Source: Nitrospirales bacterium LBB_01 (GTDB lineage Bacteria > Nitrospirota > Thermodesulfovibrionia > Thermodesulfovibrionales > Magnetobacteriaceae). From it: a stretch of 64,000 bases of DNA. A model generated the notes under the pieces. That model saw nothing but the letters and a program-made list of their open reading frames with translations. It was not told where the DNA came from and ran no database searches. The stretch lies in contig CP049016.1 in the NCBI GenBank assembly GCA_004376055.2, forward strand, positions 2,790,001-2,854,000, read 5' to 3'. A program made the translations under genes and the position numbers. The stretch's first letter is position 1. Each line of letters starts with the position of its first letter. Shown one piece after another: positions 29,123-40,886 of this stretch.

Positions 29123-29208
29123 TTTTCTGATGTTTATTTCATTACAAACTCTTTTTTACTGCAAAATATGTAATAATATTGAAACACATCTGGAGTAATA
29201 ATATAAAA

Positions 29209-33947: not shown

Positions 33948-34013
33948 TTAAATCCCAAGAATTCCGCTGATACACCACATAACTACCCATAATATTGCAA
34001 ATATCTTTCCTAT
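33948..34013 (-). pseudogene. second copy of the 21-residue membrane peptide gene, start codon ATA
   Basis: This is nearly the same as the gene at 36008-36073: 16 of 21 codons give the same residue (IGKIFAILWVVMWCISGILGI), with the same G-rich stretch before it. The first codon is ATA where the other copy has ATG, and no other in-frame start precedes it. It may be a decayed copy, or ATA may be used weakly as a start. Confidence 0.5.
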
Positions 34014-34048
34014 GACTTCACCCCCCCTTTTCAGAACAAAAAGCAAAA

Positions 34049-34408
34049 TTACTCTCCTCCTATGTGAAGAACCCTGTCGGCAGAGAAACAACTGGCAAGA
34101 TACATGTCTGCGCTCTTTACTCTAAATCCGCTTATCAAGTCTTCCTTGTGAATTCCACGCGCCTCAGCACATGCCTCACACGCTGTTACATTTGCACCGT
34201 CAGCAACAAGTTCTGTGATAGTCTTTTCCAGCGACGAGTAGTCCTTAAAAGAACGCTGCCCCTTCTTTGACAGCATCGTGCCGTTTCCAGAAAGCCAGAT
34301 ATCAACGTCATGGCCTTTCTTTCTTGCCGCCTCAGCCAGCTTCACGGCAAAGTCCAGCGTCATCGACCCTATAAGTGAAGAGAAGCAACCAATCGTTAAT
34401 TTACCCAT
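34049..34408 (-). CDS. DsrE/DsrF-like small protein
   Basis: A 119-residue DsrE-fold protein (SSLIGSMTLDFAVKLAEAARKKGHDVDIWLSGNG). The conserved cysteine region reads TACEACAEARGI near residue 77-87, followed by LISGFRVKSADMYLASCFSADRVL. Such proteins carry sulfur on a cysteine or act as small binding subunits. The ribosome-binding site AGGAGG is well placed. It is the third gene downstream of the Mms6-like and MamB-like genes and may be part of their transcript. Confidence 0.8.
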   Translation of the reverse strand: MGKLTIGCFSSLIGSMTLDFAVKLAEAARKKGHDVDIWLSGNGTMLSKKGQRSFKDYSSLEKTITELVADGANVTACEACAEARGIHKEDLISGFRVKSADMYLASCFSADRVLHIGGE

Positions 34409-34504
34409 TTCATATCCTCCTAAGAGTCAGATTGTTTTCTATAGTGTGTTAAAATTAGGGCGGTGAGTGCGTCAAAACTCAACCCTTCATGAAATTGCGT
34501 CATT

Positions 34505-35629
34505 TTACCACGGCTGCAACCAACGAGCGTTGCGACCGAAGCCTCTGTCAACATTGGCTCCTAATGCCAGAGCAAGGTTCTGCTGACTAAAATCCATATA
34601 CGCATCCCTAACCATACCAGGCTGCTCAATGTAATACATTTGCACATGGAGCGCTTTGAGATCAGTGAACATTTCCTGACCTATGACCTCTGCTAGCACA
34701 ACATCCACTCCATTGTCCTGCACAATTGACACAAGATTATGACTGACGTCTCCTTTAAAATTCATGTCTTTGTTTGGGACATAAACAATGGTGTTGTCTT
34801 TTTCGTTGTATATTATAAAATAGCGGGCACGTCCGAGAAGTGCATCTACCTGGCTGTCCGGCGTCTTGCCCTCAGACGGGATAAGAACCACATGTTTATA
34901 ATTGATTACAGTTGCCGTGTTATAGGCAAAGAAAACAACGATAAAGACTGCTGCAACGCTAATCACATATTTTGTCCTCTGTTTTATGATAGTTGAAAAT
35001 TCCGCATCACGTGCAGAAAGTGCATTAAACATCTCAATAGCAGAGCCTATCATAAGAGAGCCAATCACAACGGCCGCCAGTGGATCAAAGTAGAGGAGGC
35101 CTAGATCAGCCAGCACCACACCGACAAATGATATGCCCGACGATATAAAATTTGTCCTATTTTGGATTTTGCATATAAACGTATGGATATCGCTTAATTG
35201 AGCATCAACACAGCGGGACACATTGTATAGGTAGCCGTTTAATATGCAGGCTACAATGGAAACAATGATACTCATAAGACCAGGGCGTGTTGCCTTGCCA
35301 ATTATCAGAACTGAGAGGTTATTTGCGCATAACCACAGTCCGGCAAGGAGTGTAAGAGCTGTAACAAAGGCGGTTGTACCGGTTACGGATATGGCAGTAC
35401 CCGACTTTTGGGGATTTTTTGCGCTATAATAATTAATGCCAAATGATACGGTGTCAGACAGTGAATGCAGCGCATCAGCCATTAGAGCCTGACTCCCACT
35501 CATAAATCCGATACTCCATTTAAATAAAACGGAGAGGATATTTGAAACGAAAGAAAGTTTTATAACCTGCATGCGGCATGGCATACAGGTTGCTTTGTTA
35601 TCGTCTGTAGTAAAACAGCCTTCTTTCAT
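34505..35629 (-). CDS. MamB-like CDF protein fused to a NifX/NifB-type domain, second metal site lost
   Basis: A 374-residue protein. Residues about 20-215 form the CDF membrane domain. The N-terminus, C15-MPC-R-x-x-V, then LFKWSIGFMSGSQALMADALHSLSD, closely recalls MamB (C-x-x-C-R, LFK..LG.MSGS.AL.AD.LHS). Helix 2 keeps H55xxxD59. Helix 5 reads Q156-NRT-N160 where MamB has D-NRS-D, so metal binding there is lost. The C-terminus (about 240-374), with VVLIPSEGKTPDSQVDALLGRARYF, is a dinitrogenase FeMo-cofactor-type domain instead of the usual CDF tail. It may be a regulatory or scaffolding partner rather than a transporter. The start lacks a near ribosome-binding site; the gene follows the Mms6-like one by 18 bases. 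Confidence 0.75.
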   Translation of the reverse strand: MKEGCFTTDDNKATCMPCRMQVIKLSFVSNILSVLFKWSIGFMSGSQALMADALHSLSDTVSFGINYYSAKNPQKSGTAISVTGTTAFVTALTLLAGLWLCANNLSVLIIGKATRPGLMSIIVSIVACILNGYLYNVSRCVDAQLSDIHTFICKIQNRTNFISSGISFVGVVLADLGLLYFDPLAAVVIGSLMIGSAIEMFNALSARDAEFSTIIKQRTKYVISVAAVFIVVFFAYNTATVINYKHVVLIPSEGKTPDSQVDALLGRARYFIIYNEKDNTIVYVPNKDMNFKGDVSHNLVSIVQDNGVDVVLAEVIGQEMFTDLKALHVQMYYIEQPGMVRDAYMDFSQQNLALALGANVDRGFGRNARWLQPW

Positions 35630-35647
35630 AGCGGCGATTTTGAGTAA

Positions 35648-35932
35648 TTACTCCTTATCCTCTGACGCTACACAGACGGGACTGCTTTTGAAAATAAAGT
35701 AACCGGCAGCAATGCCTGCTCCTACCAAAAGCAATGGGGCCCACGCTCCAAGACCGAGACCAAGTCCGAGACAAAGTCCTTTTGAACCAATCCCTGCTCC
35801 GGCTGCTTTGCCGGCAAGTGTTTTATAACCGACTAATTTACATGCTCCAGGGTAGAGTCCTTGCCCTGCCGCCTGATTAGCCGCAACAACCCCAGGATAC
35901 TTAGCCGTCATACAACGTCCTAACATGTGCAT
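35648..35932 (-). CDS. Mms6/MamD/MamG-like LG-repeat single-helix membrane protein
   Basis: A 94-residue protein from ATG 35932, which lies eight bases after AGGAGG; an ATG two codons upstream is too close to that site. After an alanine/glycine-rich N-terminal half comes GIGSKGLCLGLGLGLGAWAP (residues 48-66), then a hydrophobic helix to about 82, the basic FKS, and a short acidic tail EDKE. In magnetosome proteins Mms6, MamD and MamG, the same order occurs: (LG)n, AWGP, helix, Y..KS, acidic end. I recall that pattern from the families. The long acidic iron-binding tail of Mms6 is short here. Three cysteines (C7, C31, C54) are unusual. Confidence 0.7.
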   Translation of the reverse strand: MHMLGRCMTAKYPGVVAANQAAGQGLYPGACKLVGYKTLAGKAAGAGIGSKGLCLGLGLGLGAWAPLLLVGAGIAAGYFIFKSSPVCVASEDKE

Positions 35933-35974
35933 AATCATCTCCTCCTCTGGTTATTAAACTACTTACTAATCAGA

Positions 35975-36003
35975 ATTTTACATTATAAATCCACTTTTGT
36001 CAA
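35975..36003 (-). promoter_or_regulatory. strong promoter of the Mms6-like/MamB-like operon
   Basis: On the minus strand TTGACA (36003-35998) and TAAAAT (35980-35975) have a 17-base spacer. It overlaps the end of the 21-residue peptide gene and lies 43 bases before the Mms6-like start. Confidence 0.75.
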
Positions 36004-36007
36004 ATTG

Positions 36008-36073
36008 CTATAATCCAATAATTCCGCTGATACACCACATAACTGCCCATAGTATTACAAATATCTTTCCCAT
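36008..36073 (-). CDS. 21-residue single-helix membrane peptide
   Basis: ATG with GGGGGTGA placed eight bases before it encodes MGKIFVILWAVMWCISGIIGL, one hydrophobic helix with two tryptophans and one cysteine. A near copy lies at 33948-34013 on the same strand; conservation between the copies at protein level, including W9, M12-W13-C14 and G17, suggests a real product. The size recalls small subunits of membrane enzymes, but no family is recognised. Confidence 0.6.
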   Translation of the reverse strand: MGKIFVILWAVMWCISGIIGL

Positions 36074-36144
36074 AACTTCTCACCCCCTTTATGTGATATT
36101 TCCATTATTCAGCAAAATATACACTTTGCTTACAGCCGTTACAA

Positions 36145-37113
36145 TCAATTAAAAGCAAACTTAGTACCGACAGCCGGCAAAACGAACGAGTTAGGAAATT
36201 CCCCGGCTATAGCATGTACAGCGGCAAAACCGGTACAGTGGCACGGAATAATGTGAGATGGGTTAAATTTCTTTAATTCAGCAATTGTTTCAGGGATTAT
36301 CTTTTCAAACAAATAGCCGGATAAATGAAATCCACCTAAAACAGCATATACTTTATTGATCCCTGTAAGTTTAACAGCATACTTTATTATATTGATTAAA
36401 CCTGAGTGAGCACAACCTGTCAGTATCACAAGTCCTTTGTTTGAAACATTTATAATTATGCAAATGTCATCTTTTATTTGAGTGTCTGAAACCCACTCTT
36501 GCCCACGTTTTATATAGTGAAAGGGGAAACCATTTTCAAATTCTGTAATTCGTGGAATCTCCCCTGAAATTAACAACCGTCCATCATAAAGAATTGTTGG
36601 CTCAGTAACCATTGTTATATCAAATTTTTCAGAATAAACGAGAGCGTTATCTATAGTTGGCAACATTATTTCTTCTTTATTAGGCAGAATTAGTTTTCTT
36701 TCAAGCAAGGCATCAGAATGAAAATATATTTTGACTTGCTGCCCCTTCAGCTTGTCGGCTATAACCTTTAACCCTCCAACGTGGTCAAAGTGTCCATGGC
36801 TTAGGATTATTGACGATACCTCTGTCAAATCAATATCAAAAACATCAAGGTTGTGTTCGTAACTGTTGTGATTCAAACCCGTGTCAAATAAAAAATTCTC
36901 TTCAATTCCGTCATCTATAATTGATACTATTACAGAGAAACCATGTTCTGCCACAGGAAGATGCTCGCTGTTTAATCTGTTGTCAGGTCTGTAACGCTTT
37001 GCATGAGCCGTGTCAGTCATAAGAATGTCTGTATAATTGTCCATTATGACAGAGATTCTTACCTCCTTAACTGCTTTTAAAAGATTATTGTATTTAAGCG
37101 GCGGCACTATCAT
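36145..37113 (-). CDS. MBL-fold hydrolase of the DHPMP-synthase-like/arylsulfatase-like group
   Basis: A 322-residue metallo-beta-lactamase fold protein. The metal motif is LSHGHFDHVGGL (HxHxDH), with a later GCAHSGLINIIKYAV, GGFHLSG and IIPCHCTGF. These match the family named after 7,8-dihydropterin-6-methyl-4-aminobenzene-phosphate synthase. It is cytoplasmic. The true substrate is unknown. The ribosome-binding site is weak, and ATG of MDNYTDILM (residue 20) is an alternative start. It is divergent from the padR unit. Confidence 0.85.
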   Translation of the reverse strand: MIVPPLKYNNLLKAVKEVRISVIMDNYTDILMTDTAHAKRYRPDNRLNSEHLPVAEHGFSVIVSIIDDGIEENFLFDTGLNHNSYEHNLDVFDIDLTEVSSIILSHGHFDHVGGLKVIADKLKGQQVKIYFHSDALLERKLILPNKEEIMLPTIDNALVYSEKFDITMVTEPTILYDGRLLISGEIPRITEFENGFPFHYIKRGQEWVSDTQIKDDICIIINVSNKGLVILTGCAHSGLINIIKYAVKLTGINKVYAVLGGFHLSGYLFEKIIPETIAELKKFNPSHIIPCHCTGFAAVHAIAGEFPNSFVLPAVGTKFAFN

Positions 37114-37182
37114 TCACTTACTGCTATACTAACACTGGCAACATTTCTTTACAAGCTATATAAATAACAAAATTTTTTTTAA

Positions 37183-37376
37183 ATTGCTTATTGAGTTAAC
37201 TCCGGTAGAGGACTTCATGACGTTTGCGGATGTAGAGGAAATGACTGGATCCCGCCTCCCCTCAAGGGGATTCCCCTGCAAGTGCGGGATGACAAAGGAG
37301 GAAAGCTTCTTTTTCTGTCATTCCTGCGAAGGCAGGAATCCAGTCTTTTATTGGCGGAGTTAACTACAAAGGCATT
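37183..37376. mobile_element. MITE-like repeat, GAGTTAACTC family, copy 2
   Basis: The ends are ATTGCTTATTGAGTTAACTCC and the reverse complement of GGAGTTAACTACAAAGGCATT. The flanks share ATTTTTTTTAA on both sides, so an 8-bp duplication such as TTTTTTAA is likely. The centre holds CTGGATCCCGCC...GCAGGAATCCAG. It fills the 307-base gap between the MBL gene and padR, directly upstream of the padR promoter. Confidence 0.75.
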
Positions 37377-37392
37377 TTTTTTAATTTTTCTC

Positions 37393-37439
37393 TTGACAAG
37401 ACATAGATTATATGTTAAGCTATGTATAGATACTACATA
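37393..37439 (+). promoter_or_regulatory. padR promoter region with candidate PadR operator
   Basis: A TTGACA occurs at 37393-37398; no -10 box at ideal spacing is clear. At 37421-37439 the palindrome TATGTA-TAGATAC-TACATA resembles the ATGT...ACAT operators bound by PadR-family repressors. It ends 18 bases before the padR start, so self-repression is likely. Confidence 0.55.
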
Positions 37440-37457
37440 GATAAAAAAGGGGATATA

Positions 37458-37838
37458 ATGAACAGAATGCGGCATGGACAAGGACAGTGCAAAAGACGGC
37501 TTGGAGGTTCTTTGGAGCTTATGGAGTCGTGTATTCTCCTGACACTGAAAAAACAACCTGGGCACGGCTATGAGCTAGCAAAGTCTTTAGATACATATGG
37601 TATTGGTAAACGTGGATTGGGGCCGCTCTATACAATTCTTAATAAAATGGAAGAAAGAGGGTTAATCAAATCACAGTGGGACACAAACTCTAAAAATGGG
37701 CCTGCCAGACGGATTTATGAGATAACAGAGGACGGGTTAGCTTATCTTGAACTTTTGGTTGGCATTTTACAGGAGACACTTAAGACGGTTTCCTCGGTTA
37801 TTGATGGGTTTAATTCTAATGGAGAGAATGGCTCATAG
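37458..37838 (+). CDS. PadR family transcriptional regulator
   Basis: A 126-residue winged-helix regulator from ATG 37458, which has AAGGGG before it; a start 12 codons upstream lacks a site and overlaps the operator. Typical are GSLELMESCILLTLKKQPGHGYELAKSL, then LGPLYTILNKMEERGLI (recognition helix and wing) and ARRIYEITEDG. The N-terminus is basic with HGQGQCKRR. It is the first gene of a set of small proteins and a CDF-NifX transporter, and probably controls that set. Confidence 0.88.
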   Translation: MNRMRHGQGQCKRRLGGSLELMESCILLTLKKQPGHGYELAKSLDTYGIGKRGLGPLYTILNKMEERGLIKSQWDTNSKNGPARRIYEITEDGLAYLELLVGILQETLKTVSSVIDGFNSNGENGS

Positions 37839-37876
37839 TTATTGTTAACCTCAATAATTAAAAGGAGGTGTCGATT

Positions 37877-38077
37877 ATGTCAGCTCTTAAGAAGATTAAG
37901 AAGGCAATTTTAAAGGGCGAAGTTGTTGATGTTGTTAAATCAGCGGGAGATATTGCAGGACTCTTTAGATCGCTTATTGATATGGCTGCAAGTTCGGGCT
38001 TATCTAAATATCCTGCCATAAAGAGCATTTTTACTGATTGCAGTAAAAATGACACGTCACAGAGCGGATGTAAATGA
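37877..38077 (+). CDS. 66-residue amphipathic small protein, unknown
   Basis: ATG 37877 follows AAAGGAGGTG by six bases. The protein has a lysine-rich start (MSALKKIKKAILKGEVVDVVKSAGDIAG), a weakly hydrophobic middle helix with FRSLIDMAASSG, and two cysteines near its end. No family is recognised. It is between padR and the next small gene in one direction, suggesting cotranscription. Confidence 0.65.
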   Translation: MSALKKIKKAILKGEVVDVVKSAGDIAGLFRSLIDMAASSGLSKYPAIKSIFTDCSKNDTSQSGCK

Positions 38078-38128
38078 GGCGGGCAGGGGTGCCGTTTTAT
38101 TAACAATGCAGAAATGGAGGGAATTAAA

Positions 38129-38350
38129 ATGCAAGGACACGGTAAAGGAAATGGCATGTGTGGCAGCGGCGGTGCGATGGAGCATCGCGGCCAGGGGATG
38201 GGTAAGGGTTTTTGTCACGGAAAACGTTTTGGCGGCTCAGACGTAACAGATACCGATGCTCTTAGAAACCGGCTGAATATGTTGGACAAGGAGCGTGATG
38301 AGGTGGCTAACCGACTGTCTGAACTTGATAAGTCAGATACTAAATTATAA
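38129..38350 (+). CDS. 73-residue Gly/His/Met-rich protein with C-terminal coiled coil
   Basis: ATG 38129 has GGAGGG at a proper distance; an ATG five codons upstream does not. The N-terminal half (MQGHGKGNGMCGSGGAMEH, then RGQGMGKGFCHGKRFGG) is rich in G, H, M and C, suggesting metal binding. The rest (ALRNRLNMLDKERDEVANRLSEL) is a short coiled coil. Such DUF5320-like proteins often sit beside NifX-type Fe-S scaffold genes. Here a CDF-NifX gene follows. Confidence 0.7.
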   Translation: MQGHGKGNGMCGSGGAMEHRGQGMGKGFCHGKRFGGSDVTDTDALRNRLNMLDKERDEVANRLSELDKSDTKL

Positions 38351-38375
38351 TGCGGTAAAATCACGGTCAAATATG

Positions 38376-38418
38376 TGCCGGAGAGTTTCCGAAATGACAG
38401 TGTGGGAACTCTCCGGCA
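38376..38418 (+). other. long RNA hairpin between small-protein gene and CDF-NifX gene
   Basis: TGCCGGAGAGTTTCC (38376-38390) pairs with GGGAACTCTCCGGCA (38404-38418) over 15 bases with one G-U. No T run follows, and the next gene's AGGAGG lies 11 bases later. It may set different mRNA levels for the two genes or act as a processing site. Confidence 0.5.
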
Positions 38419-38441
38419 ACCATATCAGGAGGTAGCTACTT

Positions 38442-39680
38442 ATGGAAAGTAAACAATTAACGCCGTCACAGGCAGCCGGCAGAAGAAAGTGGGTTGTAGC
38501 TCTGACTGCTGTAAAATGCCTGATAGAGAGCGCAACGAAATTAATTTTTGCCTATTTTACGGGAAGCGCAGGATTATTAGCCGATGCTATACACTCTATG
38601 ACTGATGTTGCAGGCTCACTTGTAGTATGGGTAGGCATTAGAGTGTCAAACAATAAATACAGAAGATTTACGTATGGTTTTTATAAAATAGAAAATCTGC
38701 TTGCAATGACAATCGGTGTTGCCATACTGTATGCCGCTTATGAATTGGCTCTGGGTTTTGTTCACAGTAAATCTGTGATGCCGACAAATGTTACAACATC
38801 CATCATGGCTCTTTTGCTTCTCATTGCCGTAAATTTTTTATGGGGACGGTTTGAGGTAAAAACCGGACAGCTGATAAACTCTCCCGGCATAGAGGCAAGT
38901 GGTAAACACACATTTACTGACCTCTACTCATCCATAGCGGTGCTTGTTGGGCTGGTAGGCGCCGAGTTTGGCGTTAATCTTGACAAGTGGGCGTCACTGT
39001 TTGTAGCAGTAATCCTCATAAAAGTAGGGTACGTTATAATTTGGGACAATTTAAAGGTGCTCCTTGATATTTCACTAGAGGATGAGATGCTAAGAGAATA
39101 CACGGCAGTTATTCAAAAGATTCCCGGAGTTGTTTCAGTTAAATCGATAAGAGGCCGGAATTCGGGAAGTTATCGGCTTATAAATGTTGAAATCAATATA
39201 AACACGTTTGATTTGGCAAGTGCAGAGGAGATTGCCTCAAACATTGAAAAAGCTGTAAAGCAGTATGATAATTCAATTGACACAGTATTTGTCCACTACA
39301 CTAAGGAGCTTCCATCTGTCCTTAAGGTTTTTATTCCAACAGAGTTAAATGGAGATGTTATATCTGAGCATTTTGGAAAAGCACAATTTATGACGACCTT
39401 AACGTACGACAAACAATCGATGAGATTTTATGATGTTAAAACAGAGCTAAACCCTTTTATGAAGACCGAAAAAGGCAGAGGGAAACAGATGGTGGAACAT
39501 ATCAAAAAAAACAGTGTTGATAGTGTTTGCACTAAGGAAAATTTGCAGGAAAAGGGACCTGGCCTGATGCTCTATCATCATGGTATAGATACAAGAATTA
39601 CTGAGTTAACATCTGTAAGTGAATTGCTTCAGGACTATGTAGGAAATTCAAGAGCTATCTTTGCAGAAAGGGGCAATTAG
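38442..39680 (+). CDS. cation diffusion facilitator with C-terminal NifX/NifB-type domain
   Basis: A 412-residue fusion. The CDF membrane domain (about 15-215) has both metal half-sites: DAIHSMTD in helix 2 and KHTFTD in helix 5. A CDF cytoplasmic domain follows (about 215-300, IPGVVSVKSIRGRNSGSYRLINVEI). Then a dinitrogenase FeMo-cofactor-type domain (about 305-400) has LKVFIPTEL, SEHFGKAQFM and KENLQEKGPGLMLYHHGI. It should export a divalent cation, perhaps with sensing or Fe-S binding by the last domain. It is the active-looking partner to the MamB-like protein at 34.5 kb. Confidence 0.88.
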   Translation: MESKQLTPSQAAGRRKWVVALTAVKCLIESATKLIFAYFTGSAGLLADAIHSMTDVAGSLVVWVGIRVSNNKYRRFTYGFYKIENLLAMTIGVAILYAAYELALGFVHSKSVMPTNVTTSIMALLLLIAVNFLWGRFEVKTGQLINSPGIEASGKHTFTDLYSSIAVLVGLVGAEFGVNLDKWASLFVAVILIKVGYVIIWDNLKVLLDISLEDEMLREYTAVIQKIPGVVSVKSIRGRNSGSYRLINVEININTFDLASAEEIASNIEKAVKQYDNSIDTVFVHYTKELPSVLKVFIPTELNGDVISEHFGKAQFMTTLTYDKQSMRFYDVKTELNPFMKTEKGRGKQMVEHIKKNSVDSVCTKENLQEKGPGLMLYHHGIDTRITELTSVSELLQDYVGNSRAIFAERGN

Positions 39681-39722
39681 ACGGCAATTTTGTGTTAACA
39701 ATTATCACAAGGAGGATATGCC

Positions 39723-39857
39723 ATGTATGCAAACGTATTGATAAGGGTTTTAAAGTATGCCATCCCTGTTATTGTCACACTGATGGAAAAGTCGTCATTA
39801 TTAGATTTTGTAATAGGTTCAAAGAATACTGATGTCAGAGAAACAGCGAAAAAATAG
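39723..39857 (+). CDS. 44-residue small protein, unknown
   Basis: AAGGAGGATATGCC precedes the ATG. The protein has a hydrophobic stretch (LIRVLKYAIPVIVTLMEK) that may lie in or on the membrane and a polar, lysine-ending tail. It follows the CDF-NifX gene by 42 bases, so it can belong to the same transcript. No family is recognised. The remaining bases to 39936 show nothing I can support. Confidence 0.55.
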   Translation: MYANVLIRVLKYAIPVIVTLMEKSSLLDFVIGSKNTDVRETAKK

Positions 39858-39936: not shown

Positions 39937-40472
39937 TACCCTGTAGCTTGCTACAGGGTAACCTTATGAGCTAATCTTTTATGTGGAAGTAAAGAGTCGA
40001 GTAAAAAAAGGATACCATTGTGCATGGCAGATACATTATCACATAGTATTTCCAGTGAAATACAGAAAAGCACTCTTAGATGCAGATGTTATAAGAATAA
40101 TAAAAGAAACGTCATTGGTAATAGAGGAAAGATACGATATTGAGTTTGAGGCTTTAGGAATGGATAAAGATCATATTCATATTTTGTGTGGAGGCCATCC
40201 AAAAATATCACCAGGGCAGATAGTGAGAATATTTAAAAGTATAACAGCAAGGGAAATATTTAAACAAAAACCCTCAATAAAAAAGGAATTAAGGGGTGGA
40301 GAGTTTTGGACGGATGGGTATTTTGCTAGCACGGTGGGAAAACACGGTAATGAGGATACAGTTTTGAGTTATGTGAAAAAGCAAGGAAAGGAATATCGTA
40401 AAATTTATGAAGATCGCCAGTTGGCTCTCTTCTAACAGATACCCCGCTGCTTGCGGCGGGGAACTTCATTCA
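39937..40472 (+). mobile_element. IS200/IS605-type insertion sequence
   Basis: The left end has an 11-bp perfect hairpin with TT loop (TACCCTGTAGC, 39937-39960). The right end has CCCCGCTGC-TT-GCGGCGGGG (40442-40461) followed by AACTTCATTCAC. These are the subterminal hairpins expected for Y1 transposases. There are no inverted-repeat ends or target duplications, as usual. It sits at the start of an IS481-like fragment. The exact ends are uncertain by a few bases. Confidence 0.8.
39983..40435 (+). CDS. tnpA: IS200/IS605 family transposase TnpA
   Basis: A 150-residue Y1 HUH transposase that moves single-stranded DNA. WQIHYHIVFPVKYRK begins the core, the HUH pair is in DHIHILC, and the catalytic tyrosine region is DTVLSYVKKQGKEY. 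The start is GTG 39983 just after the left hairpin. The frame is intact, so it may be active. No TnpB partner is present. Confidence 0.92.
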   Translation: MEVKSRVKKGYHCAWQIHYHIVFPVKYRKALLDADVIRIIKETSLVIEERYDIEFEALGMDKDHIHILCGGHPKISPGQIVRIFKSITAREIFKQKPSIKKELRGGEFWTDGYFASTVGKHGNEDTVLSYVKKQGKEYRKIYEDRQLALF

Positions 40473-40886
40473 CCCCAGAGTAATGGTATCTGTGAACGCT
40501 TCCATAAGACTGTACTTGAGGAATTCTACAATGTAGCCTTTCGTAAAAAGATTTATCAGTCCATTGAACAATTGCAAAAAGACCTTGCCGAACATAAACT
40601 CTCAGAGCTGGATTTAATCTGTGGCAAGAAATACCCAATTGTTATAAAGTCATGGAAGGGTAACTGGGACAATCTCTCTAACTATTTCAAGTATCCTCAT
40701 GAAATCCGGAGTCTTATCTATACGACAAACGCAATTGAGGGATTCCATCGCCAGATTCGCAAGGTTACCAAGAGGCTTTTTCAAGTGAACCCTCCCCAGA
40801 GGGGATACCTCTGTTCAGAAAAGTGGAGCCAGCCTTTAAGAAACTGGAGCCAAACTATTTCTCAACTTGCTTTGAGGGTAGGCTAA
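40473..40886 (+). pseudogene. fused remnants of IS481-like and IS256-like transposases
   Basis: About 40473-40604 matches the end of an IS481-type DDE transposase (PQSNGICERFHKTVLEEFY). About 40605-40886 matches the C-terminal part of IS256 transposase (KYPIVIKSWKGNWDNLSNYFKYP, then IRSLIYTTNAIEGFHRQIRK), interrupted near 40790 by a CCCCAGAGGGGATACC repeat. The two are joined in frame by chance. This fragment would roughly complete the IS256 piece at 25.4-26.1 kb, with about 45 codons missing. Confidence 0.8.

Follow-up and report, generated by a model that had tools for sequence, protein, structure and literature searches.

A candidate accessory magnetosome locus encoding an LG-repeat protein and a MamB-like CDF-NifX fusion in a Nitrospirota genome

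The window analyzed here is a stretch of 64,000 nucleotides (C1:2790001-2854000) in a genome of the family Magnetobacteriaceae, phylum Nitrospirota, which consists of one contig of 3,273,455 bp. Within about 6 kb of this window are encoded a protein with leucine-glycine (LG) repeats of the Mms6/MamD/MamG type and a MamB-like cation diffusion facilitator (CDF) fused to a NifX domain, hereafter MamB-NifX. We consider it somewhat better than an even bet, at roughly 55%, that the minus-strand genes of this region are an unrecognised accessory (satellite) magnetosome locus, alongside which lies an independent metal module. This reading of the minus-strand half is drawn from profile matches above the generic level, from a distribution of the LG gene that within the phylum is limited to magnetotactic bacteria, from the position of the LG gene near man2-mamK in a relative, and from a cysteine signature in MamB-NifX; it is also supported by the host having a complete main cluster (mamA, B, E, K, M, P, Q and mad/man genes).

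The original prediction, made from the letters of the DNA, had listed an LG-repeat protein, two CDF-NifX fusions, a PadR regulator, a DsrE protein, a Gly/His/Met-rich protein and several small peptides, and all of these genes are present at or very near where it placed them. Its view that they compose one module did not hold, because the region is made of two blocks on opposite strands, between which a metallo-beta-lactamase-fold gene and an intergenic region resembling repetitive extragenic palindromes (REP-like) are located. The minus-strand half (33,948-36,073) comprises, in reading order, a 21-aa peptide (36073-36008), the LG protein (35926-35648), MamB-NifX (35629-34505), a DsrE-family protein (34408-34049) and a second copy of the peptide (34013-33948), which may be transcribed together; the plus-strand half runs from the padR gene onward.

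The LG-repeat protein

The LG protein has 92 residues. Its open reading frame (ORF) covers 35648-35938 on the minus strand, and the start at 35926 is favoured both by the ribosome-site context and by the homologues. The protein is composed of a YPGACK-GY-LAGK motif, four LG repeats ((LG)4), a GAWAP motif and a hydrophobic tail. The proposed likeness to Mms6, MamD and MamG is confirmed by the NCBIfam models, which give 37.4 bits for Mms6 (E 2.8e-9), 36.5 for MamD and 32.6 for MamG, with E-values ranging from 2.8e-9 to 7e-8. When aligned with the real Mms6 of three loci (L064, L070 and L074), it displays the LG repeat and, after it, GxWxP and a hydrophobic/basic tail. Local alignments scored 16-21 standard deviations above shuffled sequences for the Nitrospirota homologues and 8-9.5 for true Mms6, and in each comparison 0/1000 shuffles attained the real score. 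Moreover, the similarity goes beyond the repeat: the homologue in genome G300 is 58% identical to the window protein, and the non-repetitive segment GLYPGACKxVGYxxxAGK is common to both.

Homologues were found in Ca. Magnetocorallium paracelense XS-1 (G007), in a genome of another family of the same order (G300) and in one of the same family (G013). Of 326 evenly sampled Nitrospirota genomes, 14 have a MamB+MamM pair, and clear orthologues are present in 3 of these 14 and in none of the 312 others (Fisher p = 6e-5, for Nitrospirota only). Other Nitrospirota gave weaker matches to the LG profile, with E-values of 1e-4 to 0.05, which were left uncounted; three of them (L054, L055 and L057) were read, and no LG protein was seen in these. 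A further genome of the sample, G025, has a single CDF with the cysteine signature described below and may be its fifteenth magnetotactic member.

The neighbourhood of the LG gene varies. In G300 it shares a contig with man2-mamK, from which it is about 8 kb upstream, and the start of mamP is found at the contig end; in G007 it is on a contig of 112 kb that does not carry the main cluster; in G013 it is split by a frameshift within the glycine-rich stretch (L047 287-455), due either to an assembly error or to real decay. Both G007 and G013 have a CZB-domain gene next to the LG gene (L046 5203-7727; L047 290-1146), after which come, in G007, a protein kinase gene and one for a universal stress protein. 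A kinase is also encoded near the LG gene of G300, directly upstream of which is a gene for a small membrane protein (L105 8974-9492), by eye possibly of the DUF697 type.

When the genome collection was scanned with the LG alignment, there were 592 matches to the pattern, none of which was confirmed as a relative, probably owing to low complexity. A DNA pattern, which is one LG repeat short and so misses the window protein, recovered real Mms6 genes and the LG gene of G007, and is not a survey of other phyla. No paper dealing with Nitrospirota LG proteins turned up in our literature search, and a survey of 2022 reports mms6 as absent from Desulfobacterota and Nitrospirota (PMC9840458).

The MamB-NifX protein

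MamB-NifX (374 aa) is composed of a CDF domain with six transmembrane (TM) helices, a seventh TM helix (about residues 222-240) and a NifX domain at residues 258-348 (Nitro_FeMo-Co, E 1e-13). Its best NCBIfam model is MamB, with 75 bits versus 49 for the generic CDF model; the third CDF of the window (CDF3, at 29179) and the second CDF-NifX fit best to non-magnetosome models. In a tree of transmembrane domains it is placed on the magnetosome-CDF side of a split, supported at 98/99, from generic CDFs and CDF-NifX proteins, where it is weakly sister to the extra MamB of G007. MamB-like CDFs of another Nitrospirota family stand on the same side, and thus the tree alone is no proof of magnetosome descent.

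The cysteines are more specific. An N-terminal C15xxC18 and a loop cysteine, C140, align with those of MamB and MamM, and this signature is present in every Nitrospirota MamB/MamM examined and in 0/12 other CDFs, MamB-like ones included. In the MamB of Desulfovibrio magneticus RS-1 the change C9Y gives non-magnetic cells; this cysteine, which matches the CxxC, is needed for magnetosomes and was noted as specific to magnetosome MamB (PMC4287615). The MamB-like nature claimed for the first CDF-NifX is supported by the profile scores and the signature. We do not favour the other possibility that had been offered, a metal system from which magnetosome genes are recruited, since by its signature MamB-NifX belongs with the magnetosome CDFs.

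The metal sites are altered: D52/D59 of TM2 are retained and the TM5 ligands (E/H and D) are replaced by Q156/N160, so that the protein is probably non-transporting. The protein also lacks the HPxGxGK loop found between TM2 and TM3, and it has no ZT_dimer, the cytosolic dimer domain being replaced by TM7 and NifX. Helix 222-240 is strongly hydrophobic and preceded by KQRTK, from which, by the positive-inside rule, we infer that NifX would be outside the cytosol, that is, in the magnetosome lumen if the protein resides there. The predicted structure has an intact CDF fold, with a predicted local distance difference test (pLDDT) score above 90 in most TM regions, and low confidence in the NifX part; the model is trusted for the CDF domain only.

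No relative of MamB-NifX was found on plasmids, and for its NifX part alone none was found in the 23 genomes of magnetotactic lineages examined; the two NifX domains of the window are not close to each other. Other CDFs in Nitrospirota were also noted. Genomes of family f25 (L091, L094, L095 and L098) have a single MamB-like CDF scoring about 200 bits to MamB without the cysteine signature, which by bit score alone would be mislabelled as MamB. The extra MamB-like CDF of G007 (L048 5427-6416, G007:C96) reaches 328 bits for MamB and 306 for MamV, far above the regular MamB of that genome; its TM2 Asp is replaced by His, and it was possibly acquired from Pseudomonadota.

The host and its main magnetosome cluster

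The host is magnetotactic by gene content. A search for other magnetosome genes, suggested along with the original prediction, brought to light a complete cluster about 395 kb from the locus, at C1:2404-2429 kb, with coiled-coil mad genes, TauE/mamO-Cter, mamQ, mamE, mamA, mamB, a second mamQ, mamM, mamP, man genes, mamK and a mad28-like actin gene (names assigned by order and by resemblance to the published cluster). The regular MamB is encoded there, and MamB-NifX outside it. The gene order agrees with that published for Ca. Magnetomonas plexicatena LBB01, which has a closed 3.27-Mb genome (PMC9376291); the magnetosome regions described for LBB01 are the main cluster, feoAB and mad28/29, with no LG or MamB-NifX region among them (PMC9376291). 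The source genome has a single FeoB_C match, at C1:3109363, about 680 kb from the main cluster, and the distance published for LBB01 is 276.8 kb (PMC9376291).

Weighing the accessory-locus reading

Several points weigh against an accessory magnetosome locus. The LG protein is below all three curated equivalog cut-offs (200 bits for Mms6, 100 for MamD and 100 for MamG), and is accordingly to be called an LG-type protein and not an Mms6 orthologue; the bona fide Mms6 of a Telmatospirillum itself reaches only 136 bits, the cut-off being 200. MamB-NifX is likewise under its curated cut-off, as is true Nitrospirota MamB, and its very long branch in the tree could be that of a decaying protein. Furthermore, the locus is not conserved among magnetotactic relatives. 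The LG gene is found in just 4 of the 23 magnetotactic-lineage Nitrospirota genomes examined and is missing from same-genus relatives, and is thus dispensable for magnetosomes in general. MamB-NifX is known only from the source genome, with no full-length relative in the 326 Nitrospirota genomes, so that no LG/MamB-NifX pair is conserved. As to whether relatives with magnetosomes keep the cluster and the others lack it, LG orthologues in the Nitrospirota sampled are confined to magnetotactic genomes or their family, and most magnetotactic relatives are without them.

The plus-strand metal module

The plus-strand half opens with a PadR-family regulator (37422..37838; Pfam PadR E 4e-18), followed by a 66-aa protein with a AAGGAGGT ribosome site (37877..38077) and a 73-aa Gly/His/Met-rich protein with a charged helical tail (38129..38350), neither of which has a family match, by the second CDF-NifX (38442..39680) and by a 44-aa peptide (39723..39857). 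The second CDF-NifX is a generic CDF transporter with ZT_dimer and a C-terminal NifX domain; as had been predicted, its metal sites in TM2 and TM5 are intact. Its best model is the generic CDF (182 bits), it lacks the cysteine signature and it groups with generic CDFs in the tree. Six other sampled Nitrospirota have homologues (E below 1e-45) with 27-34% identity along almost the full length, and a MamB/MamM pair occurs in none of these six genomes.

A link to magnetosome families above the generic level, coupled with a distribution tied to magnetotaxis, was thus found for the LG protein, and a profile link for the first CDF; neither was found for the second CDF. The satellite locus that had been proposed for the whole region is supported for the minus-strand half, by profiles, distribution, the G300 context and the cysteines, and is not supported for the plus-strand half, which is best read as an ordinary, independent PadR-regulated metal-efflux module.

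All these genes might instead be a single PadR-controlled system for metal stress or efflux (iron, zinc or manganese), the magnetosome likeness being due to shared CDF ancestry and to convergence of membrane peptides. The close vicinity of PadR, the CDF-NifX and the Gly/His/Met-rich protein agrees with this, as does the occurrence of second CDF-NifX homologues in genomes without the MamB/MamM pair. However, the two blocks are on opposite strands, the first CDF bears a signature seen in no non-magnetosome CDF examined, and the LG orthologues are limited to magnetotactic genomes or their family and are not beside CDF-NifX genes in relatives, all of which makes such a system unlikely.

Genomic setting and possible decay

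The metallo-beta-lactamase-fold protein (36145..37113, minus strand; Pfam Lactamase_B E 5e-9) is encoded just upstream of the other minus-strand genes, and its membership in the unit is uncertain. The DsrE-family protein (119 aa; Pfam DsrE E 1.2e-13) is, by eye, near-identical to that of G013 (L107:7331-7690), which indicates that at least DsrE is native to the family. The hydrophobic 21-aa peptide (MGKIFVILWAVMWCISGIIGL in the first copy) has a strong ribosome-binding site; in the second copy, a near-copy with ATAGGAAAG at its start (IGKIFAILWVVMWCISGILGI), ATG is changed to ATA and the start codon is possibly lost. The peptide was found twice in the source genome and in none of 18 related magnetotactic genomes.

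The REP-like repeat separating the two blocks (37215-37365) contains a CATTCCTGCGAAGGCAGGAATCC palindrome, and a similar sequence, which translates as SFLRRQESS, adjoins the mad28-like gene of the main cluster. Upstream of the locus, CDF3 and leuA are syntenic with the same-genus genomes G016 and G017; the synteny stops directly after leuA (about 32 kb), and no gene of the locus was found in either genome. Transposase genes lie beyond the locus, at 39983-40886, by eye an ORF of the IS200/IS605 type followed by one resembling a chimaera of two different transposase fragments. From the end of synteny and the transposase genes, the locus is taken to be in a rearranged stretch.

This setting brings in a further explanation, that the locus is a decaying remnant of magnetosome-type genes which were acquired or duplicated earlier, rearranged near mobile elements and have lost their magnetosome function. 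The long branch and lost TM5 ligands of MamB-NifX, the peptide copy without ATG, the broken synteny next to transposase genes and the frameshifted LG gene of G013 are in line with it. Nevertheless, the LG and MamB-NifX frames are intact, with codon-position composition like that of their neighbours, the predicted CDF fold is preserved, and the peptide copies differ by synonymous or conservative changes only; we therefore regard decay, too, as improbable. That the Nitrospirota LG proteins serve another trait, for example sulfur-globule or chemosensory membranes, is very hard to credit, since, despite the DsrE in the operon and the CZB-domain and kinase genes near the LG gene in relatives, the similarity spans the functional tail of Mms6 and the LG gene of G300 is close to mamK.

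Proposed function

If the minus-strand genes are an accessory magnetosome locus, the LG protein would be inserted in the magnetosome membrane via its LG/GAWAP hydrophobic segment and, like Mms6, MamD and MamG, would touch the growing magnetite face and so tune crystal size or shape. MamB-NifX would be a MamB-derived membrane partner, in which the CxxC (on the cytosolic side) and the loop cysteine typical of magnetosome CDFs are retained; through its seventh helix, NifX would face the lumen of the magnetosome and might there bind iron or an Fe-S species or pass it on. More tentatively, and with the chances rather against it, some magnetotactic Nitrospirota may use a separate crystal-control unit, made of an LG-type protein and, here, a non-transporting MamB-derived protein displaying a lumenal NifX.

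Mms6 and its relatives are the best-studied magnetite-shaping proteins, and Nitrospirota and Desulfobacterota make bullet-shaped crystals. If such a unit exists, LG-type crystal proteins would not be limited to Pseudomonadota, and could account for differences of crystal habit among bullet-shaped magnetosomes. An LG protein that in this phylum is confined to magnetotactic genomes would extend the LG class to a deep-branching lineage and would be a candidate for the control of the bullet-shaped habit; MamB-NifX would be, to our knowledge, the first CDF of magnetosomes predicted to carry a cofactor-binding domain in the lumen. A locus outside the main cluster and encoding small proteins is, moreover, the kind that cluster-based annotation misses.

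Comparison with known systems

The crystals of LBB01 are short bullets of 108 x 45 nm, with a shape factor of 0.45 and a [111] axis (PMC9376291), and those of XS-1 are short bullets of 110 x 46 nm with a shape factor of 0.43 (PMC10278575). If the source genome is that of LBB01, the crystals are short bullets of similar size in both of the LG-positive strains for which they have been described, although two strains prove nothing.

With Mms6, MamD and MamG of Pseudomonadota the window LG protein shares the order AGKG-(LG)n-GxWxP-hydrophobic-Y-(K/R) tail, a small membrane protein and a magnetotactic host. It differs from Mms6 in lacking the QIANGV N-terminus and the acidic C-terminus and in its own YPGACK-GY-LAGK segment, and from all three in its scores below the curated cut-offs and in its Nitrospirota host, where mms6 is reported absent (PMC9840458).

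MamB-NifX has in common with MamB the CDF transmembrane domain, the N-terminal CxxC, the loop Cys, the TM2 aspartates and the best profile, whereas it has Q/N for E/D in TM5, no HPxGxGK loop, TM7 and NifX in place of the dimer domain and a position outside the main cluster. The extra mamB of XS-1 similarly encodes, in a genome that also has the LG gene, a third MamB-like CDF whose metal site is altered (PMC10278575), but this is a full CDF without NifX, its gene is inside the main cluster and it has a good MamV score. The generic CDF-NifX fusions of the six sampled Nitrospirota, and the second CDF of the window, have the same order of CDF and NifX; unlike MamB-NifX, they lack the cysteine signature, HxxxD is intact in most and their NifX is probably cytosolic. 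Finally, a precedent for NifX in a magnetosome protein is FmpB of Desulfovibrio magneticus RS-1, a predicted magnetosome protein in which NifX stands beside a magnetochrome domain and whose loss lowers particle number (PMC4287615); FmpB thus resembles MamB-NifX in its NifX domain and differs from it in having PDZ and magnetochrome domains and no CDF (PMC4287615).

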